The translations under genes and the position numbers were made by a program. A DNA stretch of 64,000 bases from Sphingomonas edaphi (GTDB lineage Bacteria; Pseudomonadota; Alphaproteobacteria; Sphingomonadales; Sphingomonadaceae): contig NZ_QXTF01000001.1 of NCBI RefSeq assembly GCF_003583725.1, forward strand, positions 434,001-498,000, in the 5' to 3' direction. The notes under the pieces were generated by a model. The model saw only the letters and a program-made list of their open reading frames with translations. It did no database searches and was not told the origin of the DNA. Positions 14,880 to 31,889 of this stretch are shown here, one piece after another; positions within the stretch are counted from its first letter, which is position 1; each line of letters opens with the position of its first letter.

Positions 14880-15324
14880 CGTAGTATCATCAGAAACACG
14901 CAGCCGGATGATGTCCGGCATTCGCGGGCGCAACACCCGGCCGGAACTGGTGGTCAGGCGTATACTGCACGCATCGGGATTTCGTTTTCGGTTGCATGTT
15001 CCAGATCTGCCCGGGAAGCCTGATCTTGTACTCCGGCGCTGGAATGCAATCATCCATATCCATGGCTGCTTTTGGCACGGGCATGACTGTGCGTTGTTCC
15101 GTCTGCCAGCAACCCGGACGGAATTCTGGCGAGAAAAAATCGAGCGCAACAGGAGCCGGGACGCCACGGTAGCGGAGGAGCTAGAGCGTTTGGGATGGCG
15201 CCAACTGCACGTCTGGGAATGTGCACTGAAGGGTCCTGCCCGAGTATCGACAGAGAGACTTTCTGCTCGCCTCGCGTCTTGGCTAACGAGTGATAGCCCG
15301 AAAGGCGAAATCAGAGGCCACTGA
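14872..15324 (+). CDS. vsr: Very short patch repair endonuclease Vsr
   Basis: A strand-specific nuclease that nicks beside T:G mismatches made when 5-methylcytosine deaminates. About 150 residues: [19 protein letters not shown], then [12 protein letters not shown], then [12 protein letters not shown] with the metal/catalytic His and Cys residues, then [14 protein letters not shown] and [12 protein letters not shown]. All of these match the E. coli Vsr layout. I take the TTG at 14872, which overlaps the dcm stop, because homology begins a few residues later. An ATG at 14794 would add 26 residues of dcm overlap. The 3' end overlaps the convergent HNH gene by 14 bases. Confidence 0.93.
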
Positions 15325-16198
15325 TCCGACCCGTCCGCTTCCCGCGAAACCTTATTTCACGTAGCTCATCGACGGTGAAGGGTGGTGTCCTGCGATGAAC
15401 CATCGAATGGCAGTTCGCGCACAGAGGAACGAGGTCTTTCGCGGGATTGATGCGATACCCTTCCCCGATTTCCGACACTGGCGTGACATGATGCACTTGG
15501 ATGAAGCCGCGACCCGTGTCGCCATATGCCTCCTCGAAGTCGAATTTGCAGACCTTGCAAACGGAACCCTGTAACTCGATGCAGGCTGCCCGGTTGATGC
15601 GGCTCCGCTCGTACCGGTTCACTGCAACTCTGATTGCAGCTCCCTCGGGCAGTCCCTCATAGCCGCCGACTTCATCTTCGTCGGAAACATCTTCTTCCAA
15701 TGGCACCAGTGCCAGCACCAATCCCGTGAACCGCCTGGTCCAGCTGAAAACCTCACCATCGTTATCCGCGAAGCTCTCGGTGTTGACGGTTGCAGGTGAT
15801 TTCTCAAGAGCGAGGTCTAGGCGGCGCCACTCCTCCGGCCAAGATTCCGCTGCTTCCACACGCAAAGCAGCACCATTTACGGAGAACGATATGCGCGCCC
15901 GTTCGGCTTCGCACTTGCCTGCCAGCTGAACGAAAAGAGCGCGGCGCTCGGGGCTGGCCCTGCCCATTTGCAGAACCAGTTCGCCTGCATAGGCACCCGG
16001 CTGAAAGGTGAGGTGCAGGCTTCGCCATTGTGTCCGGACCGCGATGCGGAACGCGTCGGCGGGTGGGCAGTTCAGCGGTGACAGTTCGAATGCCGGAAAC
16101 CCGCCCTTGGAAGGCAGTGGCCTGCCTTCCAACGCTATTCCAAAATGATCACCAAGCTGCTGCGCCAGCAGCCCGTGATCAGGCCGCCACATCCTCAA
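15311..16198 (-). CDS. HNH endonuclease
   Basis: A 295-residue protein. About 195 N-terminal residues form an unassigned domain (possibly for target recognition or ATPase docking). The C-terminal HNH nuclease domain has CKVC at 214-217, the catalytic VHHVTP (His236-His237) and CANCH at 260-264, the zinc-bound HNH layout of McrA-like nucleases. It is the last gene of the minus-strand operon and starts inside the end of the GHKL ATPase gene (20-base overlap). It is the likely DNA-cutting component of the block. Confidence 0.9.
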   Translation of the reverse strand: MRMWRPDHGLLAQQLGDHFGIALEGRPLPSKGGFPAFELSPLNCPPADAFRIAVRTQWRSLHLTFQPGAYAGELVLQMGRASPERRALFVQLAGKCEAERARISFSVNGAALRVEAAESWPEEWRRLDLALEKSPATVNTESFADNDGEVFSWTRRFTGLVLALVPLEEDVSDEDEVGGYEGLPEGAAIRVAVNRYERSRINRAACIELQGSVCKVCKFDFEEAYGDTGRGFIQVHHVTPVSEIGEGYRINPAKDLVPLCANCHSMVHRRTPPFTVDELREIRFRGKRTGRISGL

Positions 16199-17780
16199 GA
16201 TCCGGTTCAGGCAGGTCCTCTACCAGCTTGCGAAGAATCCGGGACACTTCGAAGCGCATTTCTTCGAAATGTTGGGCAGTGCTGTCACTGATCGTGCTGA
16301 GCTCGGCGACGCATAGCCCCCAGAGGAGAGAGTCCATGCCTTGAACCGTCACCCCTTGGGCCAAATTCGGCACATAGACCTTGTGGTAATAGGGATGAGA
16401 CGTATTGATGCGGACGGCCTTATGGCCGTCAATGATTGCCGGCTCGAATAAAGCGTTGTCGTCGAGCTGATCGACTGGCTGGACGAAGAGCTCGCCCGGC
16501 TTTTGAGCATGTCCAATCTTAAGCTTGATCCGGAAGGTGCCGTTCCGGTTAGTGAGCTGCGACATCCCCGTGTTGGGATTTTGGACGTCTACGTTTGCCC
16601 CGCCGATCTCACCTTCCTTGGATCCGATGTTACGGTTCGAGGAGTCATGATAGCCGGACGCTTTCTTGCGAGCCTCGCTCCTCTTCCCCTGGCGATAACG
16701 GTTGTTGGCCTCCCGACGGGGCGCGGTGAGGAAACGGTCCCGAATGTATAGCCAAAGATCCTCGTTGAGGCTGATCTGCGATTTCTTGAAATCGATGTCG
16801 AAGACTTCGTCCAGCTCGTGAGTGAAGGAGAATTCGACACGCAGCAGCGAACCATGCGGCTCCTTGGAATACATGCCCAGCCAGGTAGCCTCCTGGATGA
16901 GGCGGTTCTCGCGGTAGATGTAGATACCCTGGGTATCATTGCCGAGCCGCGACTGCTTCAGGGCCGCGTCTGACGGGAACTCCTCTTTCCTTGGGAGGAT
17001 GTAGGCCCGCAACGCGAAATTCGCCTCCTTCCCCTCGCCGATCTCAACCTTCTGCTCGTGGTCACCGACCTTGTCGGACACTTCGGTGCAGAAGGGATCC
17101 CAAGGAAGAACTTTCTCACCGTTGACTCGAATGATGACATCGCGTGCCCGCTTGTCGTTGCTGTCGAGGAAACGCTGAAACACCATGGCGAGATGACTGC
17201 GCAGGCCGCCAATGGCCTTGTTCAGCGCATTCTGAGCCGCGCTGCCGCCGGGCATCCTATAGTCCTTGATCAGGCGGTCGACGTCCGTCCACAGCACAAC
17301 CGTACCCGATTTGTGCGGCGCTACTTCGTTCAGATGCTCAAGCGCCTCGGCGTCCGGCTCGTCGGACAGAAGCAGCTTCCATCCCTGCTCAGCGACATGC
17401 TTCAGATCCCATGTCGCTTCCAGGGCGGGAACGTCGCCAGGCCGCGACACCACACTGAGACGGCGAGAAAATGCGGTGGACGCCGTCTTCAATCCGAGAC
17501 CGAACTTGCCCAGACTCGAGGGATCCGAACGCCGCCGCGACCCGTAGGTCATGGCGTTGATGAGGCCCTCGCGGTCCATGCCCTCGCCATCATCGGCAAT
17601 GGACACACGGATGTTGTTCCTGAGGTCCATCAGGATTTGCAGGTCGACCAGCGTCGCGCGCGCAGCGATTGAATTGTCCACGATATCGGCAACTGCCGTA
17701 TTGAACTTGTAGCCAGTGTCCCGCAGGCCCTCGATCATCCGCTCCGGATCGGGCGGTGTCTCAACCGATTCAACTGCCAT
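16179..17780 (-). CDS. MORC-like GHKL ATPase
   Basis: A 533-residue protein with an HSP90/histidine-kinase-like ATPase domain. The N-box FNTAVADIVDNSIAA is at 26-40, the G1 box IADDGEGM near 61-68 and the G2 box GKFGLGLKTAS at 91-101. No kinase or receiver domain is present. The second half contains a transducer-like region and an acidic helical tail. Prokaryotic relatives of eukaryotic MORC ATPases have been described by comparative genomics in restriction-like operons, where ATP-driven dimer closure is thought to clamp DNA. Its neighbours here (HNH, EcoRII-N protein, SNF2, AIPR) fit that context. Confidence 0.88.
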   Translation of the reverse strand: MAVESVETPPDPERMIEGLRDTGYKFNTAVADIVDNSIAARATLVDLQILMDLRNNIRVSIADDGEGMDREGLINAMTYGSRRRSDPSSLGKFGLGLKTASTAFSRRLSVVSRPGDVPALEATWDLKHVAEQGWKLLLSDEPDAEALEHLNEVAPHKSGTVVLWTDVDRLIKDYRMPGGSAAQNALNKAIGGLRSHLAMVFQRFLDSNDKRARDVIIRVNGEKVLPWDPFCTEVSDKVGDHEQKVEIGEGKEANFALRAYILPRKEEFPSDAALKQSRLGNDTQGIYIYRENRLIQEATWLGMYSKEPHGSLLRVEFSFTHELDEVFDIDFKKSQISLNEDLWLYIRDRFLTAPRREANNRYRQGKRSEARKKASGYHDSSNRNIGSKEGEIGGANVDVQNPNTGMSQLTNRNGTFRIKLKIGHAQKPGELFVQPVDQLDDNALFEPAIIDGHKAVRINTSHPYYHKVYVPNLAQGVTVQGMDSLLWGLCVAELSTISDSTAQHFEEMRFEVSRILRKLVEDLPEPDLEDVAA

Positions 17781-17804
17781 TGCTGCTCCCTTTCAAACTT
17801 ATCG

Positions 17805-18218
17805 CTACGCGGCGACGATCTTCCATCCGGATCCCAGCCGCAGGACGCCCTCCTCCACGACCGGAGCCCGGCTTCGCCGGAATGTAACCGTACGGGCGCC
17901 GCCGGGATGACGTTCCAGGATGAGTTCGTCCCCTGCTTTCAGCCCATTTCCGTTGATGTACGGCGTCATCCTTGTGAGTCTGTACTCGTTGCGTGTCCCG
18001 CCAAAAAACCGGTTGTTGTAGTAAATGAAAGCAAATTCCCACTGCGCCCCTTCGTCATCTCGAAAGTAGAGATGCATGCGAGGGTTTTTTACATCTGCCG
18101 GAAGAGTAGGGAAGAAGCCGAGTATTTCGGAATCTTTAGGAACGAGAATTCCTGCTTGGTGAGCGCCCGTCTCCCCGGTGTCGTTAGGACTGAGGACTTT
18201 CGAAATGGCATGGGTCAT
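17805..18218 (-). CDS. Stand-alone EcoRII-N-type (B3-like) DNA-recognition protein
   Basis: A 137-residue protein that matches only the N-terminal effector domain of EcoRII. NDTGETGAHQAGILVP at residues 12-27 parallels the EcoRII segment NDTGATGGHQ, and IYYNNRFFGGTRNEYRLTR at 65-83 parallels its IYYNSRHFGKTRNEKR. In EcoRII this B3-like pseudobarrel binds CCWGG and restrains the separate catalytic domain. Here the protein ends after the recognition domain and has no nuclease part, so it probably supplies sequence specificity to the ATPase/helicase/nuclease proteins encoded beside it. Its start overlaps the SNF2 gene stop by 4 bases. Confidence 0.82.
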   Translation of the reverse strand: MTHAISKVLSPNDTGETGAHQAGILVPKDSEILGFFPTLPADVKNPRMHLYFRDDEGAQWEFAFIYYNNRFFGGTRNEYRLTRMTPYINGNGLKAGDELILERHPGGARTVTFRRSRAPVVEEGVLRLGSGWKIVAA

Positions 18219-20173
18219 TTTCTTGTCCTTCCTACCGGGCTGAGCTGTAGTGCGCGCTGGATATCCGCGACGGTCTCGGCCTTGCCGTCAACGCCGACAA
18301 CCGCTGTCTCCGAAAGAGTTCGTTTTCGCGCGATCCGGTCGTTCACCACCTCCTCCACACTGTCCGCAAGGAACAGGCGGTGGACGGTCACGGGACGCTG
18401 CTGGCCCCGGCGATGGGAACGTGCCGACGCCTGGTCTTCAACCGCCGGGTTCCATTCGAGATTATAGTGAACGACATGCGTTGCGGCGGTGATATTCAGT
18501 CCCGCCCCTGCAGCCTTTGGATTAAGGGCCAGAATCGCAGGCCCGACTTCCTCGGAGAACCGGTCAACGACACCCTGGCGGTCGCTGATTGGCGTGGCGC
18601 CGTTGATAACATCGGCAAACACGCCGTACCGTTCACGGGCAATTCTTACGATCAGGTCGGCCATCTCGTTGTAAGACGTGAATACGAGCAGCTTTTGTCG
18701 TGAGCTGAACACCTCGTCTACGATCTCGAACAGTCGCTGAGTCTTTGTGAACTGCAAGCCCTCCTCGATGCCGATCGGCGTATCGTCGAGTAAGCCTGGA
18801 TGCGCGCAGAACATCCTCAGCCGGGTAAGAGCAACCAGGGCGCCGGCAGCTGGGAACTCAGCCAGCGTCTCCAGTCTGATCCTCTCATATTCCTCGGCCT
18901 CGCTATCGGACAGCAGCAGGACCTGTGGGATATCAATCCGCTCGGGAAGATCCTTGGCAACCTCCGCCACTCGCCTCCGCAGCATGATGGGTGAAGTCAT
19001 TGGCTCAAGTGCAGCGGCGCCGAGGCGGTCGTTCGGATAGGTAGCTTCAAAAGACTGCTGGTCGCCGAGCAAACCCGGAACAGCGAAATCGCATAATGAC
19101 CAGAGGTCAGTGAGGCTGTTTTCAACCGGCGTGCCAGTTACGGCGATACCGCAACGGCGTCTTAGCGCCTTGACGGCCTGGGCTCGCGCCGTCCCGGCGT
19201 TCTTGATTGCCTGCGCCTCGTCCAGGATGACGGTCCGCCAGTCGATCATCTCGAACATGCTGCTGTCACGGACCACCGTTTCATAGGAGGTGATGGTCAG
19301 GTCGAAGGGAAGCAGTGCGCGATAATCGCCGGTACGCCGGGCGCCTTGATGGATGACTGTCTTCAGGCCGGGCGCAAACCGCTCCACCTCCCGTCGCCAG
19401 TTTTCCATCAACGTTGATGGAGCAACCACCAGTGACGGCGACGCCTCGTCGCGCTCAGGCGCTGCCAGCAGCGCAATTAGCTGTATGGTCTTCCCCAGAC
19501 CCATCTCGTCCGCAAGGATCGCGCCGAGCCGTTCGCTCCAGATGTATGTCAGCCACTGCCAGCCATCATGCTGGTAGGGATAAAGATCACCACGAAAAGA
19601 TATGAGCTGCGATGTCTCTCTCTGCGGCACGAACTCCGGCTTGGAGTCGGCCAGAGGAACGTTGTCGGCGAAGCCGGGCAACTCGGCCGCGTGCTTGCGC
19701 AACTCAAGATATTGTCGAAGGGAAATGGCGCCGGGTTGCGAGATGCCGCACGCGGCCAGACCCCTTGCGGCATCCGCGAGCGCGCCTGACGCCAGCGGAT
19801 ACCATTTTCCTCCCAGCACGACGTGGTCCGGCGCGGATTCTTCGAGGGAAACTTCAGCCTCGTGATCGCCTGCCCTTGCCAGTACCTTGCAGGAAAGCCC
19901 GCCATCCTGCGAGGGATCCGGAAGACATGCCTCGACCGAAAGGCTTGCGGGATAGCGGGAAAATGACAGACCCTCCGGACGCGATCCCAGCCTGAGCTCA
20001 CGCCCTCGGACAGCTGTATTGCCGTCGAACAAGATCGAATAGATTTCGTCCGCGGACACACCGAGCGGATCTTCCCCGACAACCAAGTCGAGCTGGGTTC
20101 CCCTCACCGTCCATGCGGCATCCACCGGCAAGGCGGTCATCGACGTCTCGCAGCCGCATTCGGGCATCCGCAT
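18215..20173 (-). CDS. SNF2-family helicase/translocase
   Basis: A 652-residue superfamily II ATPase. About 195 N-terminal residues are unassigned. Then LYPYQHDGWQWL opens the helicase core, with Walker A DEMGLGKT at 222-229, the DEAQ box at 318-321, the motif III segment VTGTPVENSLTDLW and the motif VI segment SHRRGQQRPVTVHRL near the C-terminus. No nuclease domain is fused. Proteins of this class move along double-stranded DNA. In this operon the likely role is to translocate or remodel target DNA for the HNH nuclease. It is coupled to the EcoRII-N gene by ATGA. Confidence 0.92.
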   Translation of the reverse strand: MRMPECGCETSMTALPVDAAWTVRGTQLDLVVGEDPLGVSADEIYSILFDGNTAVRGRELRLGSRPEGLSFSRYPASLSVEACLPDPSQDGGLSCKVLARAGDHEAEVSLEESAPDHVVLGGKWYPLASGALADAARGLAACGISQPGAISLRQYLELRKHAAELPGFADNVPLADSKPEFVPQRETSQLISFRGDLYPYQHDGWQWLTYIWSERLGAILADEMGLGKTIQLIALLAAPERDEASPSLVVAPSTLMENWRREVERFAPGLKTVIHQGARRTGDYRALLPFDLTITSYETVVRDSSMFEMIDWRTVILDEAQAIKNAGTARAQAVKALRRRCGIAVTGTPVENSLTDLWSLCDFAVPGLLGDQQSFEATYPNDRLGAAALEPMTSPIMLRRRVAEVAKDLPERIDIPQVLLLSDSEAEEYERIRLETLAEFPAAGALVALTRLRMFCAHPGLLDDTPIGIEEGLQFTKTQRLFEIVDEVFSSRQKLLVFTSYNEMADLIVRIARERYGVFADVINGATPISDRQGVVDRFSEEVGPAILALNPKAAGAGLNITAATHVVHYNLEWNPAVEDQASARSHRRGQQRPVTVHRLFLADSVEEVVNDRIARKRTLSETAVVGVDGKAETVADIQRALQLSPVGRTRK

Positions 20174-20180
20174 CCCACGG

Positions 20181-22340
20181 TCAGATCCGGATCACTTTGG
20201 TGGCGGTCGACGTCAGCTTGATCGTGTCGGTTGTCGGGCTGACCGACTTCGCGGACCCGCCGTCTAGTGATGCAGTGTCAAATCCTTCCTCAGCCATCCG
20301 CTTGAGAAGGTCGCCGATTGCCTTGGTGTCGCCGGGAGGCAGAGGAAATTTTCCTGAGCCCAGTTTCGCAAGGGCCGACCTGGATGTCGGCGACAGCAAA
20401 CGCATCCGATCGGCTTGCGTATGCAGCTTCTGCGCATAGGGCATCAAGGCGAGGATGCGCGTTTCGAGCTCAATTCCCCGGTCGATTTGCCGGACTGCCC
20501 TGCCCTCGCGCGCAGCGGTTTTTGATTCCTCCTTGTCCAGTAACAAGGCTTCAGGAAGTTCCGGAACGTTGAAGGTCATCCGGTCGATGAGGTTCCAGCA
20601 AGCCTGCTTCTTGCAATACTCTCCGACGTTCCGGACCGTTTCAGGAGTGTCCTTGATTGCCTTCGAAATCTGGGGCGCGAGCTGGCGGATTGCCTCCGCA
20701 ATCTCTTCGGGAACGTCCTGGCTGTTCCAGATGAGCTGGAGGTTGAGGCCGGCCTTCCCGGATTTTCTCGCCCTACTGGCAAGCCAAGCAATCGTGTAGG
20801 CTACTGTCTGGGACTTGTAGCCTCTATCCTCACGGTACCAATCCGCTTGACCGACCATACGGTCCACCCAGCGGAACAACAGCACCTTGGCGGCAGCCGC
20901 CTTGTACCATTCATCGTTGAAGCTGAGTTCCGACGTAGCCCATTCGCCTTCAACCTTGTCGGCAAAGTGCAGGAAGCATTTCTGGGCTCCTTGGCAAACC
21001 ACATGGGGCAACCCCGCATATGTCAGCTCGGACTTCGCGAGATCTGTTTTGTCGATCAGCTGGGCAGCAGGAAACTCCAGATCGAAGTCGCGCCTCTGCT
21101 TCGGCGTTCCGTAGGCTCTCGCGTCTCGATACTGACCCCGAGCCCGCTCATAGAACCACTTTGAACCTGACGTAGCGCCGGGTCGCGGCGGAGCCGTAAG
21201 ACGCCTCGAAATCTGCTCCATTGTCACGTGGAACTTGTGGCTGGCGAAGAAGTCGGCTTCGTTGACCTTGTTCTGAGTATTAGCGAACCGCGAGATTTGC
21301 GGCACGATCTTCTCGATGAGTTCCGGCTTCACCACCGAAAGCTTCATCTGGACATACACGCCTTCAAGATCTGCCCCTGACCGGTCCCGTGCATATAGAA
21401 TAGACGCCGTGGTCTGACCGCCATTGACGATCTGGAGGTCATCAATCGAGGCAATCGCTATCGAGCCATCTGCAGTTCTGACCGTATCTACGCGCGACGC
21501 AGTAGCCGTAAGACCATTATTGTAGGCCAGAAACATGTGCGGAGCATCCTTGATGGTTGTCAGGATGCCCTTGTTCACTTTTGTCCGAGCTTGGAGATAC
21601 GTGCGGACATTCTGCTCCAGCAGCCTTGCGCCGTAGAGTCCGTAGATATCAGCGAGCAGGGTCCCCGGCAGCGCGATCAAATACGACTGATAATCATCGT
21701 CGGCACCGAATGCCTGCAAACAGGGGATCGGCGCTCCGCTAAGTGACTGCAGATCGACAGTGATCGGCTCAGGGCTGCCCCGCGAGCTTACAATGCTGGC
21801 GTATCGCGCGAAGTCGAGAAAGTTGTAAACTACCGGCAGGCCGGTAATTTCTGGAGCGGGCTCGGGCGGCCTTCGGGTCGACAGGCGCGCGTTGGAAAAT
21901 ACCATAACGCGGATACGGCGAACTGAAGCTGTCTGGAATGCGAGCGCATGGCCAGCTTCGAACTCCGGAGATTGCGCTGGAAAAGCCTCCAGATTACCCG
22001 GAGCTACGGCAAACTCGATAAACCTGCGCACCTTTTGGGTAAGTGCATCGATGTCGGCGCTGTTGATCGTCTCTAGGGTGTCAATTCCACGGAAGTCGCA
22101 AATGGCGAGGTACAAGACCCCTCGTTCGGAATCGAACGCTGCGCCATCTACCTGATAGCCTCCCCGGCCCTCCCTCCGAACCGGCGTATGGATCAGATCA
22201 ATTGTATCGCCGTTCTCGGCGGCCGTTTCCGCGAAAATGCGGAAAAATGCGGCGGCCGGACTTTCACCGGAGGCTTCGACCGTAAAATCCAGTTCCTCAC
22301 GGAATGCCTCGAATGCACTCTCAAGACTGTCAGCAGACAA
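20181..22340 (-). CDS. AIPR-family (abortive infection phage resistance) protein
   Basis: A 719-residue protein and the first gene of the minus-strand defence operon, 7 bases before the SNF2 gene. The AIPR signatures are clear: FLAYNNGLTATAS near 274-282 and IVNGGQTTASIL at 304-315, followed by VQMKLSVV. The N-terminus has YQVDGAAFDSERGVLYLAICDF (residues 62-83 region), which could be a PD-(D/E)xK-like strand pair, although the Lys is not evident. AIPR proteins recur in restriction-like and MORC-associated operons and in phage abortive infection. Their biochemical activity is not settled. Confidence 0.88.
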   Translation of the reverse strand: MSADSLESAFEAFREELDFTVEASGESPAAAFFRIFAETAAENGDTIDLIHTPVRREGRGGYQVDGAAFDSERGVLYLAICDFRGIDTLETINSADIDALTQKVRRFIEFAVAPGNLEAFPAQSPEFEAGHALAFQTASVRRIRVMVFSNARLSTRRPPEPAPEITGLPVVYNFLDFARYASIVSSRGSPEPITVDLQSLSGAPIPCLQAFGADDDYQSYLIALPGTLLADIYGLYGARLLEQNVRTYLQARTKVNKGILTTIKDAPHMFLAYNNGLTATASRVDTVRTADGSIAIASIDDLQIVNGGQTTASILYARDRSGADLEGVYVQMKLSVVKPELIEKIVPQISRFANTQNKVNEADFFASHKFHVTMEQISRRLTAPPRPGATSGSKWFYERARGQYRDARAYGTPKQRRDFDLEFPAAQLIDKTDLAKSELTYAGLPHVVCQGAQKCFLHFADKVEGEWATSELSFNDEWYKAAAAKVLLFRWVDRMVGQADWYREDRGYKSQTVAYTIAWLASRARKSGKAGLNLQLIWNSQDVPEEIAEAIRQLAPQISKAIKDTPETVRNVGEYCKKQACWNLIDRMTFNVPELPEALLLDKEESKTAAREGRAVRQIDRGIELETRILALMPYAQKLHTQADRMRLLSPTSRSALAKLGSGKFPLPPGDTKAIGDLLKRMAEEGFDTASLDGGSAKSVSPTTDTIKLTSTATKVIRI

Positions 22341-22707
22341 AACGCGTCCCCCTCTTCGTCATCCTACTCACGCGGCGACGATTGAAAAGTCGTAAACGGC
22401 TAGCTGCATCCGTATAATGAATCCCGCGAATGGTTCTCGCTTCGCCCTGGTTTCGCGAATGGCCGCCTAACAGATTCAAATTTGGGCTGTTATCTGTTCA
22501 CCGATTGGCGCCCGTGTTTGATGAATCATGTTCGGCAATAATCCGCTTGAGCAAGGCGCCGACTACGCTTTGTAAAAGGCTAGGATCCCAGCACCGTGGT
22601 GTGCTGCGATACCGCTACCTTCGAAATTTTCAGACTTCGCCGCGATATCGCTAACGCTCAGCCCGGCATGGCGATGCAGTCTTTGTCCAAAAAGACTTGC
22701 TTTTACT
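22341..22707. promoter_or_regulatory. Divergent intergenic region upstream of the AIPR operon
   Basis: 367 bases lie between the AIPR start and the first AbiE palindrome. No supported gene occurs here. It must hold the promoter of the five-gene minus-strand operon, but no convincing -35/-10 pair could be chosen by eye. Confidence 0.45.
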
Positions 22708-22750
22708 GCATCACAGGCCCTACGTCCTTAGGACGTAGGGCCTGTGATGC
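22708..22750. promoter_or_regulatory. 43-bp perfect palindrome, operator 1 of the abiE-type operon
   Basis: Two 21-bp arms are exact inverted copies around a single central base. The innermost 17 bases, TACGTCCTTAGGACGTA, recur in the second palindrome 47 bases further on. It begins 119 bases before the antitoxin ATG. AbiEi-type antitoxins are known to repress their operon by binding paired inverted repeats, so this is a likely operator. As RNA it would fold into a very stable hairpin. Confidence 0.85.
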
Positions 22751-22785
22751 TGATTCCATAATGAGTAACCTCTCCAAAGATTGAC

Positions 22786-22814
22786 TTGACAACGCATGCA
22801 TTGAACTCCATACG
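22786..22814 (+). promoter_or_regulatory. Candidate abiE promoter overlapping operator 2
   Basis: TTGACA at 22786-22791 is followed 17 bases later by CATACG at 22809-22814. The -35 box is a perfect sigma70 match and the -10 box is poor. The -10 lies inside the second palindrome, so antitoxin binding there would block polymerase. Confidence 0.5.
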
Positions 22815-22840
22815 TCCTTAGGACGTATGGAGTTCAATGC
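22798..22840. promoter_or_regulatory. 43-bp perfect palindrome, operator 2 of the abiE-type operon
   Basis: This is the same length and the same 17-bp core as operator 1, with different outer arms (GCATTGAACTCC instead of GCATCACAGGCC). The right arm contains the ATG at 22827 and a GGAG that could serve the GTG at 22842, so protein binding or RNA folding here could affect translation as well as transcription. Confidence 0.85.
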
Positions 22841-23732
22841 TGTGTCGCTATATTTTAGTCACGCAATCGCGAAGCTGCTGGAGGAGCAAGGCACGGCCCT
22901 CGTCACAGAATACACTCTCTATCTGAAGGTGCGCCCCTTGCTCGACGAGCCCAGCTTGGGCGGCGAAAAGGTGATTCGTGTACCTTCGATCTGGGCGCGA
23001 TCACACGTTCGAGCCATGATACGCACACTTGAAAAGCGCTTGGTCCTGGCGCCCGACGACGATTTCAATGCCGGCGTCTGGCGTGTGGTGCAAGCGGCCA
23101 CAGCGCCACCGGCGGATGAGGCCATCTGTCTAGTGGACCCCTTCGCGTACGTTTCGCATCTCTCGGCCATGCAGAGATACGGCCTAACGGACCGATCCCC
23201 TGAAGCACTACACATGACCACCCCTGCGCGTGCGCTCTGGACCGCATTGCGTGATGTAAAGATGAGCGAAGACTTCAGCTGCGAGCCGCACCCCTCCACG
23301 CTGCCGCAACTGATGCGTATCGGTTTGAAACCCGAAGTGCGGCGTAGGCAGGTTGTATTGCACGAGACACGCCATCCAGCCAAGCCAGAACCAATCGCTG
23401 GCACCGCTAGCCGCATAGCCCCGCTTGGAAGGGTCTTCGTCGACATGCTCGACCAGGCCGATCTCTGCGGAGGCATCCATCACGTGCTGGATGTCTTTCA
23501 CCGGTATGCGGAAGATAACATGGACGAGATCATCAATGCAGTTGAAGCGTTCGACAGTCCAATTTTGAAGGTTCGCGCGGGCTACATCCTCGATGAATTG
23601 CTCGGCGTCTCAAATCCGGCTGTCGAAAAGTGGATGGCTTGCGCTCAGCGGGGTGGCTCGCGAAAGCTCGACCCCAAGTCGCCGTACGGCAGTAGATTCT
23701 CTGAAAAATGGATGATCGCACTTAATGTCTGA
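22827..23732 (+). CDS. AbiEi-type antitoxin of a type IV toxin-antitoxin pair
   Basis: Up to 301 residues. Residues about 95-135 carry the family pattern CLVDPFAYVSHLSAMQRYGL, then LHMTTPARALW, like the central part of AbiEi/transcriptional-regulator antitoxins. The N-terminus (FSHAIAKLLEEQGTALVTEY) is likely the winged helix that binds the operator. The ATG at 22827 is listed, but it lies in the palindrome. A GTG at 22842 with GGAG 10 bases upstream is a plausible alternative and loses only 5 residues. The 3' end overlaps the toxin gene by 8 bases. It would repress the operon and counter the toxin without stable complex formation, as known for AbiE. Confidence 0.82.
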   Translation: MEFNAVSLYFSHAIAKLLEEQGTALVTEYTLYLKVRPLLDEPSLGGEKVIRVPSIWARSHVRAMIRTLEKRLVLAPDDDFNAGVWRVVQAATAPPADEAICLVDPFAYVSHLSAMQRYGLTDRSPEALHMTTPARALWTALRDVKMSEDFSCEPHPSTLPQLMRIGLKPEVRRRQVVLHETRHPAKPEPIAGTASRIAPLGRVFVDMLDQADLCGGIHHVLDVFHRYAEDNMDEIINAVEAFDSPILKVRAGYILDELLGVSNPAVEKWMACAQRGGSRKLDPKSPYGSRFSEKWMIALNV

Positions 23733-24645
23733 ACCGACTGAGCCTTCCGATACCGTCGATGTTGACATTCGAGCTTGGGTCGACGCTGCACGCCCTGACC
23801 CGCAGTTACATCGCGACCGGCAAGTCACCGAGATCGTGCTTGCCGCCATTGGACTGTCCGAGACCCTGCACCAGAGCCTGGTCCTGAAGGGCGGGACATT
23901 AATGGCGATCGCGTTCGGCTCGAAGCGCGTGACGGGAGATGTCGATTTTTCAGCGACCGTCCCCCCTGATGGCTTCGACGAACTGCTGCGAGAAGAGCTG
24001 GATGCTTCTTTGCCTGCCGCCGCTCGGAAATTGGGATACTTGGACCTGCTTTGCCGCGTGCAGGGAGTCCGTCGACGCCCAAGGCCCGAACTCTTCGAAG
24101 ATGCAGGCTTCCCCGCATTAGAGCTTCGGATAGGGTCAGCAGATCGAGGCTCGAAGCAGGAGGTGGCGCTGGCAGAGGGCCGTGCCGGCCGTATTCTCAT
24201 CATCGAGATCAGTTTCCGCGACCAAGTATATGCGTTTCAGGAACTCAATCTCCTGCGGGCCGCCGTGGCCGTGCAAGCGTTCACCGTCGAAGAGTTGATC
24301 GCCGAGAAATTCCGAGCCCTGCTTCAGCAGCCCATTCGAAAGCGGAACAGGCGACAAGACGTGTATGACATCGCCTTCCTTCTCGAGACAAATCCCGTCG
24401 ACGAGGCCGCCCGGCACCAAATCCTGACCACACTCATCGAAAAATGCCGGACGCGCGACATTGAGCCCACCCAAGAGTCAATTAACGACCCGGAGGTCAA
24501 GACGCGAGCGGCGAGAGAATGGGAAACGCTCAGGTTGGAAATTTCGGACCTGCCGCCTTTCGACGGTCAGTTCGAGAGGGTTCGAGCGCTCTATCAATCC
24601 CTACCTTGGGCGGATCGAGCGCTTAGCACGGACTGCCGCGTTTGA
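23725..24645 (+). CDS. AbiEii/AbiGii-type nucleotidyltransferase toxin
   Basis: A 306-residue protein of the DNA polymerase beta-like nucleotidyltransferase superfamily. LKGGT at 54-58 and TGDVDF at 70-75 form the GG(S/T)...DxD active site. A later segment, VEELIAEKFRALLQQ, followed by RRQDVYDIAFLL, matches the conserved Lys/Arg and Asp of AbiEii motifs III-IV. Known members transfer nucleotides to tRNA or another target and stop growth during phage infection. Translation is coupled to the antitoxin by the 8-base overlap. It converges on the STAND gene with a 244-base space that holds no visible gene. Confidence 0.9.
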   Translation: MSEPTEPSDTVDVDIRAWVDAARPDPQLHRDRQVTEIVLAAIGLSETLHQSLVLKGGTLMAIAFGSKRVTGDVDFSATVPPDGFDELLREELDASLPAAARKLGYLDLLCRVQGVRRRPRPELFEDAGFPALELRIGSADRGSKQEVALAEGRAGRILIIEISFRDQVYAFQELNLLRAAVAVQAFTVEELIAEKFRALLQQPIRKRNRRQDVYDIAFLLETNPVDEAARHQILTTLIEKCRTRDIEPTQESINDPEVKTRAAREWETLRLEISDLPPFDGQFERVRALYQSLPWADRALSTDCRV

Positions 24646-24889
24646 GCGAGACTGCGAGTTGATCGCCGTGGCAAAGCAGCGATCGAAATCTGAATGTTTG
24701 CCTGCTCGCAGGTCTGTCCAAGATCGCTCGGAACGACTGTGATCGGCGCTGAACAGAACCGCTCTCTCAACCAACCGGTGGCCGACATTCAGCTTCCGAG
24801 CAGCGCCCCACTAGTAAGCGGGACCGTGCTGATCTCAACCTTTGTCGCCTTCCCAGAGGGATCGTTAATGCCCCTCGGAGTACAAGCAT

Positions 24890-27607
24890 TCACTTCGAAG
24901 AAATCGCGGCGCGGGCTAGCAAGCGATCTTTAATGGGTCCTAATGGCGCAAGCGCGCCCGCCGTGCGCAAATCGTCCATCGCATCACCCTCTCCAAGCGC
25001 CGCGCGAATCTCGAACCGATGCTCCCAGAACTCATGGAAGCGCGAGCAACAAGCTTGGTTGTCCAAGGCAAGGTCGATCCAATGCAAGGCTTCCACGGGC
25101 CTACCTTGGCGGGCAAGAGCGAGCGCTATTAGGCGCTGAATCCAGCAATTCGTTTCCAAGTCTCCTCGCGCCCTCAAGATTGGTTCGGCTTCGCCAGCAC
25201 GACCCAACTCTATAAGAAGCTCCGCCTTCCGCTGCTCGTGGAACGGCGAAAGGCCTGCCGAGCTTTCGAACAGGTCTAAGGCCACTTGCAACGCAGCCCC
25301 CCCGTCGGAGCCAAGGCTGCGGCCGTACTCGAACATGACGTCGCCAAATTCAGCACGCGCATCATCGCTCTCGAACCGGGCAATGTCCGGCCTCGGTACC
25401 GCCTGCAAAACATCTTCGAGGACTGCAGGAGACTCTTGGGACCAATACCGCGCGACAGCGGCCAAGGTACCGTAGGCCTGCTCGAGGCCCGCCTTGGCAT
25501 TTTCTATGATGGTGCGGACAATGAAATCCTGGCGCGGTCTCAGGATTAGCTCACGCGCAGCTTTTTCCCGCCAAGGGATGGCTTGTAACACGGCAAGAAG
25601 TAGCGAGGGCGATATCTTATTAGGCTGCGCTTCGGCGGCGCTGATGACTTCCTCACCAAGAGCGATCGCCTTCTCATTCTCGCCCTCTCTCTTGTAGCCG
25701 CGCATTAGCTGGAGCCGCGACGCGTCGAGCGGCGCATCGCTGGCGAGTACGGCTTCAAACTCGCGCCAAGCGTCCTCGTGCCGGTCGGCCCAAGCCAGCG
25801 CCTTTCCGAAATGGTGGCGGACCTCCGATCGCTGCCGCGACGTGAGTCCCGGCAGACTGAGCAAGTCTGTGAAAAGCCCCAACCCCTCCTTCACGTAGGC
25901 CGAAGCCTGATCGCTCCCGTCATGCTTGGCGCGCAGATATTGCCATTCAAAGGTCTCGATGATCTCGCGGATCAACAGAGGATGGACGGACCGGCCGGCG
26001 GCCGAGACCACTTTCGCCCGGTTAACCGGGTTTTCGACGGCTATTTCCTCGCTGCTCTCAGGGCTAGTGACTTCGAGCAGTGCGAGCACGTATGCGGGCC
26101 GCCGGTCGCCACTGTTCACGAGAGCAAACAAGCGATCGCGCAAACTAAGTGCTGCGGTCCGGAAGCTGAGGTCATTAAGATCGCACGTCTTAGCTAGATA
26201 GCACTCGAGCATGTTGTTCCAGCGACTATCCTCATCCGCCCTCCACCAATCGAGGCTAGAGAGGCTGGCGAACACGACGTCGTGGAGACGCACGGCCGTC
26301 GGTCGGTCCGACGAGGTAAGGGCACGGTCGTTGAGCTTACGGATTCCAGCGGGCAGTATCGCTTCGCGCGCAAAACGGTAGTCAGACTCCGGCCGTCCTG
26401 CCCAGCGGAAGAACGACAGCTCGTCCCTGAGGACGCTCCGGTAGCGATCAAGCAAGCGGTCAGCGAGCCGCTGCTGCGGATCCGCCAACTGGCCAACCTC
26501 GCGACAATCGAGCGCGAGGTCTTCCCAAGTCGCCCCGTTGCGAATGGCTGCATTCATCAGCGCCAAGCTCAAAGGATGGCCGCCGACGGTGGCCCAGACC
26601 TTGGCAAAGATCTCCGGCGGGCAAGGCTCCTCGAGGTATCCGTTGAGGACTGCCTGACCCTCTTCCGGGGTGAGCTCCGGCATGCGGTACTCTCCAGCAA
26701 GGCTCGCGCGCGCGGTCACCAACACGTGTGATCCCGGACCGCAAAGGGTCGCGAGTTGCGCTTGCTCGATGTCATGTGATGGATCGTCTATAACCAGCAG
26801 GCAGCGCTGGCGCTTCAACAAGTTCGCGATGTTCCTCTTGGCTCCGCCCCGAACGAGCGGCATGCCCTGTAGCGCGGTCGCGCCCCTGTATTCTTCGGGC
26901 TCGAGCCAAATCCTCAGATGATAATTCTGCACGCTTTCGACGCCGAAGGCGGTTGCCGCGGCGGACTTTCCACTGCCACCGATGCCCGTCAGAATGAGGC
27001 ACGGGCTGCTGGCTAGGCGCTGGCTGATCTCGGCGTTGATGAAGGGCCTTGGACTATGCTGCGACTGTAGCGTCGGAAACAGCCGGTCACGCGCAGCTTC
27101 GTCGCGCAGCTCCGCAAGAACCGGGAGATATTGCGATAACTCTTCGATAGCTGCATCGTTGAAAAGGAGCTTGCGCACTATCAGACCCGCGATGGTCTGC
27201 GCCCCCAAAATCCCGATGGAACGGCCATTCATCCGTGGCTCGGCGAGCACCTTTTTCTTGAAATCGTCGGCGGCAATCGGCCGCTTTCTTTCCGCGGCGA
27301 TCAGCAGAATGCGTCTCGCATTTGGTCGTCGACTGAGCGCCTTGTCGATGTCGGTATAGGCCTTGTCCATGCCGGCGGCGAAATAACCCCGTTCGGAGGA
27401 ATATTGTGCGACGACAGCACCATCGTCGCTGGTGCTGTCGAGCACGCTGCTGACCGGCAGTCCCAAGTAGTTCACGCCCGAATGCTCGAGCGGCGTTTGC
27501 AGTAAATGGTCGAGTAACTTGCCGCCGAATTCTTCAAAATCGCTCGCAATCGCCGGAAAGGTCGGAATGAGCCGGTCAATCATCTGCCGCTGCGTCTGAA
27601 TCTTCAT
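24890..27607 (-). CDS. STAND NTPase with unassigned N-terminal effector-like domain and helical repeats
   Basis: A 905-residue protein. Residues 1-150 form a separate domain with VSSVLDSTSDDG, then AQYSSERGYF, then ARRILLIAAE. This looks like an alpha/beta, nuclease-like fold, but a full PD-(D/E)xK set cannot be seen. The NTPase follows: Walker A LTGIGGSGKS at 206-215, Walker B LLVIDD at 270-275, an LVTARA sensor strand and a GxP-like TVGGHPLSLALMNAA. From about residue 440 the chain is all-helical with TPR-like pairs (AYGTLAAVARYWSQ, ALARQGRPVEALHWIDLAL), the typical sensor half. This layout matches antiviral STAND/Avs-like proteins. The start is 164 bases after the methyltransferase stop. 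Confidence 0.82.
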   Translation of the reverse strand: MKIQTQRQMIDRLIPTFPAIASDFEEFGGKLLDHLLQTPLEHSGVNYLGLPVSSVLDSTSDDGAVVAQYSSERGYFAAGMDKAYTDIDKALSRRPNARRILLIAAERKRPIAADDFKKKVLAEPRMNGRSIGILGAQTIAGLIVRKLLFNDAAIEELSQYLPVLAELRDEAARDRLFPTLQSQHSPRPFINAEISQRLASSPCLILTGIGGSGKSAAATAFGVESVQNYHLRIWLEPEEYRGATALQGMPLVRGGAKRNIANLLKRQRCLLVIDDPSHDIEQAQLATLCGPGSHVLVTARASLAGEYRMPELTPEEGQAVLNGYLEEPCPPEIFAKVWATVGGHPLSLALMNAAIRNGATWEDLALDCREVGQLADPQQRLADRLLDRYRSVLRDELSFFRWAGRPESDYRFAREAILPAGIRKLNDRALTSSDRPTAVRLHDVVFASLSSLDWWRADEDSRWNNMLECYLAKTCDLNDLSFRTAALSLRDRLFALVNSGDRRPAYVLALLEVTSPESSEEIAVENPVNRAKVVSAAGRSVHPLLIREIIETFEWQYLRAKHDGSDQASAYVKEGLGLFTDLLSLPGLTSRQRSEVRHHFGKALAWADRHEDAWREFEAVLASDAPLDASRLQLMRGYKREGENEKAIALGEEVISAAEAQPNKISPSLLLAVLQAIPWREKAARELILRPRQDFIVRTIIENAKAGLEQAYGTLAAVARYWSQESPAVLEDVLQAVPRPDIARFESDDARAEFGDVMFEYGRSLGSDGGAALQVALDLFESSAGLSPFHEQRKAELLIELGRAGEAEPILRARGDLETNCWIQRLIALALARQGRPVEALHWIDLALDNQACCSRFHEFWEHRFEIRAALGEGDAMDDLRTAGALAPLGPIKDRLLARAAISSK

Positions 27608-27771
27608 GCCGTCGCAACTCCTAAGTTAATCCAAGCGACCCGAGCCGAACGGTCTCATGGTTTGCCGCTATCGCCATGAATTTGCGTGATCAAGGACGCC
27701 GAAATTCAGCCATTCGTTCAGTCGGCTGCATGCGGCCTCAATGGACCCACTGTTCGCGCGAGCAATGAGCC

Positions 27772-28908
27772 TTACACGTTTGCCGACAAGGTCAGGATCA
27801 GCTCGTCAGCGTCCTGACGTGCCGCTCGGTGCTTTAGATCTCCGCCGAGCGTCGAGAAGCGCGACGAGACCTTCTCTTCCTCGATGCGGAAATGATCGGC
27901 AGCGAGCGCCTTGACGTCTTCGCCGCTGAGGCCATTCGACGCAGAGCCCGCCGGAAACGTAATGATCACTGCCACCTTCCGCCGCGCCAAGACCGCGAGC
28001 AGATCGTCGAAGGCGCGCTTCGACCTGCTGGACATCGAGAAATCCGAGACCGGGCGGTCGCTCCGGTTGGGATAACGCCCCGAACCCGAAACCTCGCCCA
28101 CGTCACCGCGTGCGATGGACTCGAGGACGTGATAGAAACGGCTGTAGTGGACACCTGAATAGGGCGGATCGAGGAAGCAAAGGTCGCCCGGCTTGGCCCG
28201 GTCGGCGAGTTCGATTGCGTCCATACAATGGGCCTTCCCTTCGCGCTTTGCATGGCGCGGCGCGATATCGTCGATCCGACTGCGAACAATGGAAGGCAAG
28301 TCGCGCCGCCAAGCTTCGATCAGGAATTTACCGGCGCTTTCGTTCGGCTTGAAAGGTTGGGCCGTATGGCCAGGCGATGCCGCGCAGCGGCTAGCTGCCT
28401 GGATAATGCTCGCAAGGGCAAGGTCGCGAAGACCCGACTGGCTGGGCAGGGTTGCACGCAAGGCATCCAGCCATGCGACCTGCCACATTGAGAAATAATA
28501 ACCGCCATAAGCCTTGCTCAGCGGAAAACCGTCTCCAAGATATTGGTCGCGCGCGCTCGACGCCGCTTCCGAAGCGCCGATTTTGCCCAGATTTTCTTGG
28601 AGTTTGGCTATCTCGGCCCATTGCGCATGATCAAACAGCCGCTCCGATGCTCGCTCTATCCAACTGTCGACCCAGACCCGATCAGTCACTGCCTCGGTCC
28701 GCTCGATCACCGCCGCGGCCAGAACCCTTGAGTATTCTTGGAGGTCGCTCGCCAGCACTGTCGCGTCGTAGCGTTGGCCGATGTGCCACGCGACGGCGGC
28801 CGAGCCCGTGAACAAATCGAACACGCGATTGACCTCGCCGAGCGAGCGCCCGAGCGCCTCGCCTAGGCCATTGCCCAGCATGGCGCGCTTGGAGCCCATA
28901 TATTTCAC
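27772..28908 (-). CDS. D12-class DNA adenine methyltransferase
   Basis: 378 residues from a GTG start whose bases overlap the TGA of the upstream gene (GTGA), a clear coupling signal. MGSKRAMLGNGLGEAL at the N-terminus is the motif X region, VFDLFTGSAAVAW (about 29-41) the SAM-binding motif I, and LCFLDPPYSGVHYSRF (DPPY at 247-250) the catalytic motif IV for N6-adenine. A long helical insertion separates motifs I and IV and should contain the target-recognition region. No cognate restriction enzyme is adjacent. Its partners are the 421-aa unknown and the DGQHR protein, with the STAND NTPase downstream. It probably marks self DNA for that cassette. Confidence 0.9.
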   Translation of the reverse strand: MKYMGSKRAMLGNGLGEALGRSLGEVNRVFDLFTGSAAVAWHIGQRYDATVLASDLQEYSRVLAAAVIERTEAVTDRVWVDSWIERASERLFDHAQWAEIAKLQENLGKIGASEAASSARDQYLGDGFPLSKAYGGYYFSMWQVAWLDALRATLPSQSGLRDLALASIIQAASRCAASPGHTAQPFKPNESAGKFLIEAWRRDLPSIVRSRIDDIAPRHAKREGKAHCMDAIELADRAKPGDLCFLDPPYSGVHYSRFYHVLESIARGDVGEVSGSGRYPNRSDRPVSDFSMSSRSKRAFDDLLAVLARRKVAVIITFPAGSASNGLSGEDVKALAADHFRIEEEKVSSRFSTLGGDLKHRAARQDADELILTLSANV

Positions 28909-30170
28909 TGAAACAGTCCCCAAAGCGCCGCCCGCTCCGTTTCGCAGACGCGGACTGCATTGCTGGCAAGCGCGGTCACCCACTCGAGCCGATGGCCGGT
29001 CGGCGCCAACGCGCTTTCCTCGAGCGCGAGGTCGATATCCGACCAGAGATCAGCGCTGGCAGCGGGTGGCATGCCCGGCGCCCACAAGCCGTGACTCGCG
29101 CCGAAGTCTTGCCACCACTCCTGGAAATGGTGGCACGGCTGAACGCCGGCGGCACGTAGATTGTCTTCGGCCATGCCCGTCGCCAACCGCAGCAGCAAAG
29201 CGGCGCGGCACATCATCGCATAAGGCGGGGCCGGCAATGTCTTTACCGACATCTGGATCAGGAAGTCATGGTCAATTGGGTCGGTCACGCGCTTTAGAAA
29301 ATCGAACGGAACGACGGCTTTGACGCTTTCGTGCAGCCGATCGTAGCGATGTTCATAATCGGCAACCGTAAGGAAATGTGAGCGGGCCTCAGTTTCGAGC
29401 AGGATGCGCAGGAGGTGGCGCTCAAGTTCGACGCCGTTGGGGCGGCACGCGTGCCAGAACATGGCGAGGAAGGCCGCGTCGTCAGCTGGTGTGGTAGTAA
29501 TAGGGCCGAGCGCCGTCGGCTGGTAGCTCGACCAGTTGCGCTGGTCGCGGTCGGACACGCCTTGCTCAAGGTCGAAGCCCCATTCGGTCATAAGCTGCGC
29601 GAGGGCCGTTGAAACTCCAGCCGGAAAGAACTCGCGAAAAGGATCGAGAAGGGACGCGCCGGCGAAACCGATCGGGCCAATGAGCCGCTTGACGCTCGAT
29701 GGCGCCGTCGACCACTCCGCCAGTGCCAGCCAAGCCATGTCGTGCGTGCCATGCTCGTCGAGCAAGTGCACGGCCCCAGCGCTGTCGATGACGGCATTGC
29801 GGCGATTGAAAACTCCGATTCCGGAGCTTGCCAGGATCGACAAGGCCGCGCGAAGCTCGGCGTAATAGGCGAGATGTCGCGAAGCGTGCGCCTGTCCGGC
29901 AAGAAGCGCCGATAATGCTCGTCCAAGGTACGTCCAGCCGTCGACCGCGTGCAATGGCCCACGGACGGCAATGACCTCAAGCATATCAGCGCCGGAGACG
30001 GCTGCGAACGCGGCCTGCGCCTTGGGCAACGCGCCATCAGAGTAAGGATAGCCCGCCGGCAGCCAAGGAGGACAGGCCTGCGTCCTGAACCGGCCGAGCG
30101 CGTTGATGACAACCGCCGGGTCGGCGAGCGCGAGGCTGGTTCGGTCGGCAACGCTGAGCTGTGCGGTCAT
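28905..30170 (-). CDS. Unrecognised 421-aa protein of the DGQHR/methyltransferase cassette
   Basis: A soluble protein of 421 residues, rich in Ala and Leu and probably mostly helical. No signal peptide, membrane helix, P-loop or nuclease motif is visible. Notable segments are WLPAGYPYSDGALPKAQAAF near residue 36, FNRRNAVIDSAGAVHLLDEH near 120, and a C-terminal HHFQEWWQDFGASHGLWAP. It begins 1 base after the DGQHR gene stop and is coupled to the methyltransferase by overlapping stop and start codons. The three proteins should therefore be made in fixed ratio and may form a complex. I do not recognise the family. Confidence 0.75.
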   Translation of the reverse strand: MTAQLSVADRTSLALADPAVVINALGRFRTQACPPWLPAGYPYSDGALPKAQAAFAAVSGADMLEVIAVRGPLHAVDGWTYLGRALSALLAGQAHASRHLAYYAELRAALSILASSGIGVFNRRNAVIDSAGAVHLLDEHGTHDMAWLALAEWSTAPSSVKRLIGPIGFAGASLLDPFREFFPAGVSTALAQLMTEWGFDLEQGVSDRDQRNWSSYQPTALGPITTTPADDAAFLAMFWHACRPNGVELERHLLRILLETEARSHFLTVADYEHRYDRLHESVKAVVPFDFLKRVTDPIDHDFLIQMSVKTLPAPPYAMMCRAALLLRLATGMAEDNLRAAGVQPCHHFQEWWQDFGASHGLWAPGMPPAASADLWSDIDLALEESALAPTGHRLEWVTALASNAVRVCETERAALWGLFQ

Positions 30171-30171
30171 C

Positions 30172-31695: not shown

Positions 31696-31889
31696 TCGTC
31701 CTGCTCCCCCGACATCGATGGCATAACCATTGATTTCGCTATCATCGGAATAACGACCTGGATCCATGTTGGGAATCCCGTCTTGGCCATCACGTCCTAC
31801 AATCCTACCGACGCTGACTAAGTCTGCTTACGGGCGGTTGGCGAGCAGCACTCAGCGACTGAGAAGGGCGCTTAAAAGCGCTTCACCAG

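Follow-up and report, generated by a model that had tools for sequence, protein, structure and literature searches.

The window analyzed in this work, a stretch of 64,000 nt in its whole length, carries an AbiE gene pair inside a defence island (15311-32927) whose other members are an MzaB-like protein (16179-17780), an EcoRII-N protein, a SNF2 helicase, an AIPR/MzaE-like protein (20181-22340), a D12 methyltransferase, a protein with a DndB match below the Pfam cut-off, and a tyrosine integrase. The initial annotation had described two perfect 43-bp palindromes with an AbiE pair downstream, and both parts of this description hold: the palindromes lie at 22708-22750 and 22798-22840, each is built as 21+1+21 bp with arms that are 100% complementary, and the AbiEi and AbiEii ORFs follow directly after them. 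On the forward strand, the AbiEi antitoxin/repressor gene is placed at 22842-23732 (PADLOC AbiEi PDLC02237, E 4.5e-99; GTG start proposed) and the AbiEii nucleotidyltransferase toxin gene at 23725-24645 (Pfam PF08843, 107.5 bits against a cut-off of 22.5; PADLOC AbiEii, E 6.5e-108), the two ORFs overlapping at 23725-23732. The mechanical ORF call had AbiEi begin at 22827, inside palindrome 2, which is probably wrong: in the alignment, homologues begin at the residue that corresponds to 22848, and going back from there the first in-frame start codon is the GTG at 22842, one base past palindrome 2. With the start moved to this GTG, palindrome 2 is wholly noncoding, and it is likewise noncoding in 17 annotated relatives that were checked.

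The window AbiEi was without match in a Pfam search, and a sequence-profile search of solved structures gave no AbiEi match; its AbiEi relatives among the structures were found by fold only. The AbiEi model (pLDDT 94.9) has as its top solved folds Rv2827c (1zel; Z 12.4, rmsd 5.4 over 240 residues), followed by AbiEi of S. agalactiae (6y8q; Z 11.4, rmsd 4.4 over 187 residues). As modelled, the protein has the N-terminal winged helix and the C-terminal antitoxin domain of an AbiE type IV toxin-antitoxin system, and the gene order places the PF08843 toxin AbiEii downstream in what is predicted to be the same operon.

Palindrome 1 (center 22729) is the upstream operator-like element and palindrome 2 (center 22819), ∼90 bp further on, is the one that overlaps the predicted promoter; neither has an assigned strand. 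The core said to be shared by the two is indeed present in both as the 17-mer TACGTCCTTAGGACGTA, at 22721-22737 in palindrome 1 and at 22811-22827 in palindrome 2, and the 46-bp stretches that contain the palindromes are 74% identical. The next longest perfect palindrome of the window (loop ≤4) has 13-bp arms. In the whole 64,000-nt window TACGTCCTTAGGACGTA with up to 3 mismatches matched both palindromes only, at an expectation of 0.04 matches, and the search for the core elsewhere in the genome that the initial annotation had proposed found it (≤2 mismatches) at these two palindromes only in 2.37 Mb. Chance origin was rejected on these grounds, a 21-bp arm being expected arithmetically ∼64000 x 4^-21 times in the window and the core match 0.04 times. 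A dispersed (REP-like) repeat was also rejected, as both of the core sites in the whole genome lie before the AbiE pair.

Next, we examined the DNA upstream of AbiEi homologues, as had also been proposed. Two palindromes were found in 71/98 AbiEi loci and one in 23/98, a palindrome being counted when the core TCCTNAGGA stood in a perfect run of at least 15. The 98 loci were drawn from plasmids (14 loci taken among the matches listed, 40 of 154 records), genome contigs (the best 80 of 116 relatives) and whole genomes (AbiEi relatives in 4/398 genomes, the window's own included). Among the 4/98 loci scored without a palindrome, L037 and L091 have 1 and 68 bases available upstream, L004 is the same DNA as L101, which has two palindromes, and L086 has a palindrome with 27-bp arms and an altered center. 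The second palindrome of L028, one of the 23 one-palindrome loci, is interrupted by an N alone, and L045 and L078 have merely 287 and 157 upstream bases. Some loci are redundant (L004/L101, L028/L047, L031/L032, L034/L035/L036 and L059/L162 are identical across the first 400 bases compared, and others are near-identical); these are included in the 71/98 count and in the 191-site counts below, and were thinned out for the statistics on 97 arms and on arm length. Ten extra plasmid loci (Escherichia, Klebsiella, Citrobacter, Rahnella, Acinetobacter, three Xanthomonas, Acidovorax, Thiothrix) gave two palindromes in nine and one in Thiothrix; two of the Xanthomonas copies are imperfect within an arm, L105 through an indel and L103 through an outer mismatch. 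Palindromes before AbiEi occur across several phyla, and the contig titles name Acidobacteria, Nitrospinae, Rhodothermales, Bacteroidetes and others, with the proviso that many contig relatives are metagenome bins whose taxon labels may be wrong. Coraliomargarita, Opitutales and Haloferula, also among the contigs with AbiEi relatives, belong to the Verrucomicrobia. The center-to-center distance of paired palindromes is almost continuous from 87 to 128, plus 152 and 198; helical phasing of the two palindromes is not seen in these near-continuous distances. One palindrome is gone from some plasmid relatives: in L010 the upstream DNA has been replaced, and deletions have removed palindrome 1 in L012 and palindrome 2 in L013. 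At L080, a 25-bp-arm palindrome with the same core (3849-3899) lies past the AbiEi and AbiEii-like genes and another lies before the genes. The Gilvimarinus contig L101 also carries, at 751-785, a perfect 17+1+17 palindrome that is unrelated to these, its center being a different one.

In the window, a -35 box TTGACA is predicted on the forward strand at 22786-22791, 33 bp before the center of palindrome 2. A weak -10-like element (CATACG/TACGTC, 22809-22816, forward strand), placed by its spacing from the -35 box, falls in the left half of palindrome 2, and the transcription start is predicted in its right half. TTGACA with 0-1 mismatches was found between the palindromes at 82/83 loci, 44 of them exact, as compared to 36/83 and 2 exact in one shuffle of each. 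The -35 candidate stood 31-35 bp ahead of the center of palindrome 2 at 58/82 loci, a distance from which the -10 element and the start point are predicted to lie inside palindrome 2. Inverted repeats overlapping the operon promoter, as expected of an AbiEi autoregulatory operator, are therefore present at the window locus as far as the promoter prediction goes.

The core TCCTNAGGA is common to the palindromes upstream of AbiEi. Measured on 97 non-redundant arms, information content falls from 1.6 bits at position 5 to 1.0 at position 6 and 0.8-0.3 at positions 7-10, and from position 11 to 24 it does not exceed 0.21 bits; positions 1-4 could not vary, since the sites had been located via TCCTNAGGA. 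The arms pair where their sequence is nearly free. In 191 TCCTNAGGA sites of 111 loci, not chosen for symmetry, mismatched pairs at positions 11-16 number 2/1146, one being the N in L028 and the other the indel of L105, and mismatched pairs at positions 11-20 number 21/1910, spread over 12 of the 191 sites, with about ten sites mismatched at positions 17-20. Among 165 palindromes, preselected for a perfect run of at least 15, position 20 is paired in 163, position 22 in 132, position 23 in 86 and position 24 in 36, and the symmetry ends at about 20-24 bp from the center. The two palindromes of a locus, which differ in sequence, have similar arm lengths (Spearman 0.81 for 55 non-redundant of 84 loci; mean within-locus difference of 0.75 vs. 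1.90 when shuffled), and one locus has short arms in both (16 and 16). Common ancestry may contribute to this correlation.

To estimate how specific the palindromes are, the class, a second AbiEi family and viral contigs were searched. Among 385 genomes of the class, the TAYGTCCTNAGGACRTA pattern was found in the window's own and in 4/384 others, all four of which have a pair of long palindromes around the core. In 3/4 of them, among which L162 is a duplicate of L059, the palindromes precede AbiEi; in the fourth, L160, they stand where the contig ends and no AbiEi is in view. In 110 homologue loci amounting to 489,680 bases, some of them redundant, 188 core-bearing perfect palindromes (arm ≥15, loop ≤4) lie upstream of AbiEi. 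Nine perfect palindromes by the same limits lie elsewhere in these loci, and 5/9 are of the same type: two of L004, a locus scored on the wrong strand, those with altered centers in L072 and L086, and one past the AbiE genes of L080. None of 11 loci of the other AbiEi family, PF09407, has TCCTNAGGA or a perfect arm longer than 13 (loop ≤4); the longest, of 13 in L173, belongs to an imperfect palindrome that extends further and has 3 mismatches. The tie to the AbiE operon claimed for the palindromes is borne out by the company of AbiEi in many lineages, by the overlap with the predicted promoter and by their not being dispersed.

One PF09407 locus, L171, has 15-bp arms with an 11-bp loop and the words TATGTCCT/AGGACATA at the outer ends; TATGTCCT is also the word at the center of the AbiEi palindromes studied here. 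L171 perhaps has the same half-site in the opposite arrangement, as may be compared with the S. agalactiae operator described below, where the perfect part is on the outside. Searches for AbiEi homologues in phage records found none, and 14 pattern matches to AbiEi in viral contigs included none confirmed by alignment search. There are 43 viral contigs with a 15-bp core, with arms of 18-19 in two and of 13-14 in two, and no AbiEi was found within the stretches of them examined. The palindrome of L122 (5471-5509), a lone core palindrome with arms of 19, runs as far as the start codon of an ORF of 151 aa (no PHROG) that adjoins a major head protein gene. The other lone one, in AT-rich L129 (213-249; arms of 18), is ∼65 bp ahead of a 171-aa ORF. 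The two are possible phage-borne AbiEi sites or decoys.

Two AbiEi operators that have been studied resemble the window palindromes in place and differ in layout. In S. agalactiae, AbiEi is reported to be a monomer (Dy et al., 2014, PMC3985639) and to bind two repeats of 23 bp with 3 bp between them, which cover -35, -10 and +1 and have 4 mismatches and a perfect 11 bp at their outer ends. The window shares with that system the AbiEi fold and inverted repeats on the promoter region of the AbiEi-AbiEii operon; however, S. agalactiae has one imperfect 23-3-23 pair, whereas the window has two perfect palindromes with a 1-bp center, a conserved middle and nearly free arms (PMC3985639, as far as the available text describes the repeats). 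The 23-3-23 layout with outer perfect sequence is thus not the layout of the window; the role may still match. For M. tuberculosis Rv2827c, the accessible text (Beck et al., 2020, PMC7319586) gives two successive pairs of 23-bp inverted repeats, the second on the promoter. This is like the two successive elements before the window operon, of which the second is on the predicted promoter, and 1zel is the top fold by Z; the repeats of a Rv2827c pair are 13 bp apart and have a sequence consensus, while the arms in the window are 1 bp apart and their distal parts differ between the two palindromes. S. suis AbiEi is stated, in the available part of its report, to bind its promoter repeats and also oriT (PMC11062541). 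By analogy, the window palindromes likely fit the role of AbiEi operators with a different layout of two tight perfect palindromes conserved at the center. No earlier description of such palindromes before AbiE was found among the open-licence PMC papers listed in the searches. Comparable repeats ahead of further abiE loci are noted in PMC3985639, and a partial earlier notice is therefore possible.

Next, we examined how the symmetry is kept. The self-complementary arms that diverge between the palindromes had been taken in the initial annotation as showing selection for symmetry. This argument was not supported in that form, as mirrored substitutions, spacer-like divergence of the distal palindrome 1 arms and center flips would also come from one-step copying without selection on symmetry; selection for symmetry is neither the sole nor the best account of them. 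In 19 comparisons of related loci, which share loci and are not independent and in which indels were left out, every arm substitution within 20 bp of the center was mirrored; one-sided substitutions were found at arm ends only (L015-L038 and L033-L043). Palindrome 1 of L105 has a one-sided indel of one base. Between L040 and L041, 233/3983 other positions and 2/44 arm pairs differ, so that in this comparison arm pairs change roughly as often as the background. Across 91 pairs drawn from 14 Roseobacter-group loci, divergence per site was 0.324 in the distal arm of palindrome 1 vs. 0.362 in the spacer; in the same set, the values were 0.072 for the first 300 CDS bases and 0.066 for the distal arm of palindrome 2. 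The arms of the enteric plasmids are conserved while the flanks diverge (L117 vs. L112). Given this conservation and the slow palindrome 2 arms of the Roseobacter group, some of the distal arm sequence is constrained, perhaps by the promoter and the ribosome site.

The central base inverts on near-identical backgrounds. Between L009 and L010 the center is flipped T/A and 2/2872 other positions differ; both centers are flipped between L041 and L042 (68/3157 others differ) and between L104 and L105 (93/1920); and L102 and L112, compared across 201 bp of plasmid, have only 2/201 bases different, which are the two centers, both A/T. Center changes other than A/T flips are also present among related loci. 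Among more distant loci (a forest of sites) A/T accounts for 37/66 center changes, as the base-composition estimate of ∼54% would have it, and the flip argument therefore rests on the near-identical pairs alone. In the available text of two reports, template switching homogenizes arms and inverts spacers (PMC8604942), and in quasipalindrome correction one arm templates the other (PMC7202029). As described in those parts (PMC7202029, PMC8604942), the likeness is that arm templates arm and that the spacer can invert; the difference is that quasipalindrome correction is known from reporter and gene sequences, whereas here it would act on a conserved operator family. Mirrored changes with no one-sided substitution within 20 bp of the center, indels uncounted, are found here as template switching would leave them, and the A/T center flips have the appearance of its spacer inversion. 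One-step copying between arms is, on the sequence comparisons, well supported. Template switching alone is insufficient for the narrow arm length matched within a locus, and selection is better shown by the conserved core plus the locus-specific arm length than by mirrored arms.

The explanation that we consider probable is that the palindromes are AbiEi autoregulatory operators in which the center is read through the core and the distal arms are kept mirrored by hairpin- or cruciform-templated copying. AbiEi would repress its own AbiEi-AbiEii operon through both palindromes, palindrome 2 sitting on the -10/+1 region and palindrome 1 ∼90 bp upstream. Base-specific recognition would go via the core, which extends about 10 bp to either side of the dyad, and the distal half of the arm would mostly not be read as sequence. 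The 21-24 bp arm is about as long as one AbiEi half-site of S. agalactiae and M. tuberculosis, and one AbiEi is therefore probably seated on each arm. During replication the palindrome would fold into a hairpin or cruciform in which one arm templates the other, homogenizing the arms and inverting the central base. What we infer from these patterns is that the window AbiEi binds and represses, that each arm seats one protein, and that arms are copied in this way. Counting against the explanation are the one-sided changes (the indel of L105, the mismatches at positions 17-20 and the arm-end substitutions), the constraint on some distal arm sequence, the center changes other than A/T, and the 23/98 loci with a single palindrome.

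Direct reading of a hairpin or cruciform by AbiEi is possible, and an operator read as structure, in which AbiEi or a partner recognizes the extruded form so that self-complementarity of 20-24 bp is selected and distal sequence is left free, is unlikely though a serious contender. The sharp end of the symmetry (163/165 paired at position 20, 36/165 at position 24), the similar arm lengths within a locus, including the one of 16 and 16, a distal consensus that is nearly absent, and the presence of the palindromes in many lineages all speak for it. Compensation under strong selection, however, would be expected to be slow or to pass through one-sided intermediates, but the 19 comparisons have no one-sided substitution within 20 bp of the center, and the distal arms of palindrome 1 change at roughly the spacer rate. 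A more specific version is unlikely: the distal operator would be defined by mirror symmetry rather than by its letters, AbiEi would gauge an extruded hairpin or cruciform whose length is fixed and whose tip is conserved, and hairpin-templated copying would keep the operators paired while the letters drift. If this were true, it would tie the toxin-antitoxin promoter to the extrusion of DNA, as under supercoiling, replication stress or single-stranded entry by phage or plasmid. We also think it rather unlikely that the palindromes are purely mutational, with template switching keeping them perfect, the core alone functional and arm length an inherited accident. Mirrored changes and center flips would follow directly, and they agree with the behavior reported for template switches in the available parts of PMC7202029 and PMC8604942. 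There is also a precedent in the perfect, possibly parasitic palindromes of nematomorph mitochondria, which, as far as the accessible text goes (PMC6649704), are like those here in having perfect arms without an excess of imperfect ones and a suspected conversion; they differ in lying in coding sequence, in being gained and lost between species, and in having no regulatory partner proposed in that text (PMC6649704). Against a purely mutational origin are the narrow, locus-specific arm length across distant lineages and the small number of comparable palindromes elsewhere in the same loci.

Two other roles are far less probable than the operator reading we favor. A role in RNA, as hairpins of the AbiE 5' leader (an attenuator or an RNA antitoxin), would accord with L016, L017 and L019, where promoter-like boxes seen by eye just before palindrome 2 would place it at the 5' end of the transcript. 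Wobble pairs are usually tolerated in RNA stems, but mismatches of the G.T/A.C type make up just 10/1910 pairs at positions 11-20, all of them at 17-20, and at the 58/82 loci with the -35 candidate at the right distance the predicted start is inside palindrome 2, so that one arm would be transcribed. With the start predicted there, an RNA hairpin is disfavored as the main role and very improbable altogether. The least probable reading of all is that of recombination or replication sites of AbiE-carrying mobile elements (telomere-resolvase-, attC- or REP-like), which draws on the long palindromes with a fixed center and on several AbiE loci that are on plasmids near recombinase genes. The palindromes, however, track the AbiEi gene and its promoter, and the core is unique to the AbiE locus in the genome and seldom found without AbiEi.

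If the favored reading of core-read, copy-maintained operators is right, the palindromes would form a natural family of regulatory sites, in several phyla, with constant form and mostly free sequence, and would document how template switching acts between the arms of palindromes in nature. TCCTNAGGA within a perfect palindrome of >40 bp, usually paired, could serve as an AbiE-operon signature for an AbiEi subfamily that in the window has no Pfam match. For AbiE itself, the question is raised of an antitoxin reading DNA structure, which might link expression to extrusion or replication stress in phage attack.

Natural center-flip variants are found in the 4.7-kb enteric plasmid family of L102, which was represented by 52 plasmid records and found in 20/5426 E. 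coli genomes, two record collections that overlap. These plasmids carry AbiEi, an AbiEii-like frame reaching the record end, and paired palindromes. From identity values, the A form is implied for palindrome 1 in at least 8/52 plasmid records (a ninth at ≥99% is a partial match) and 6/20 E. coli records, and for palindrome 2 in at least 2/52 and 2/20, respectively; base-by-base reading covered L102 and L112-L117 only. The 4.7-kb plasmids would be a handy laboratory model.
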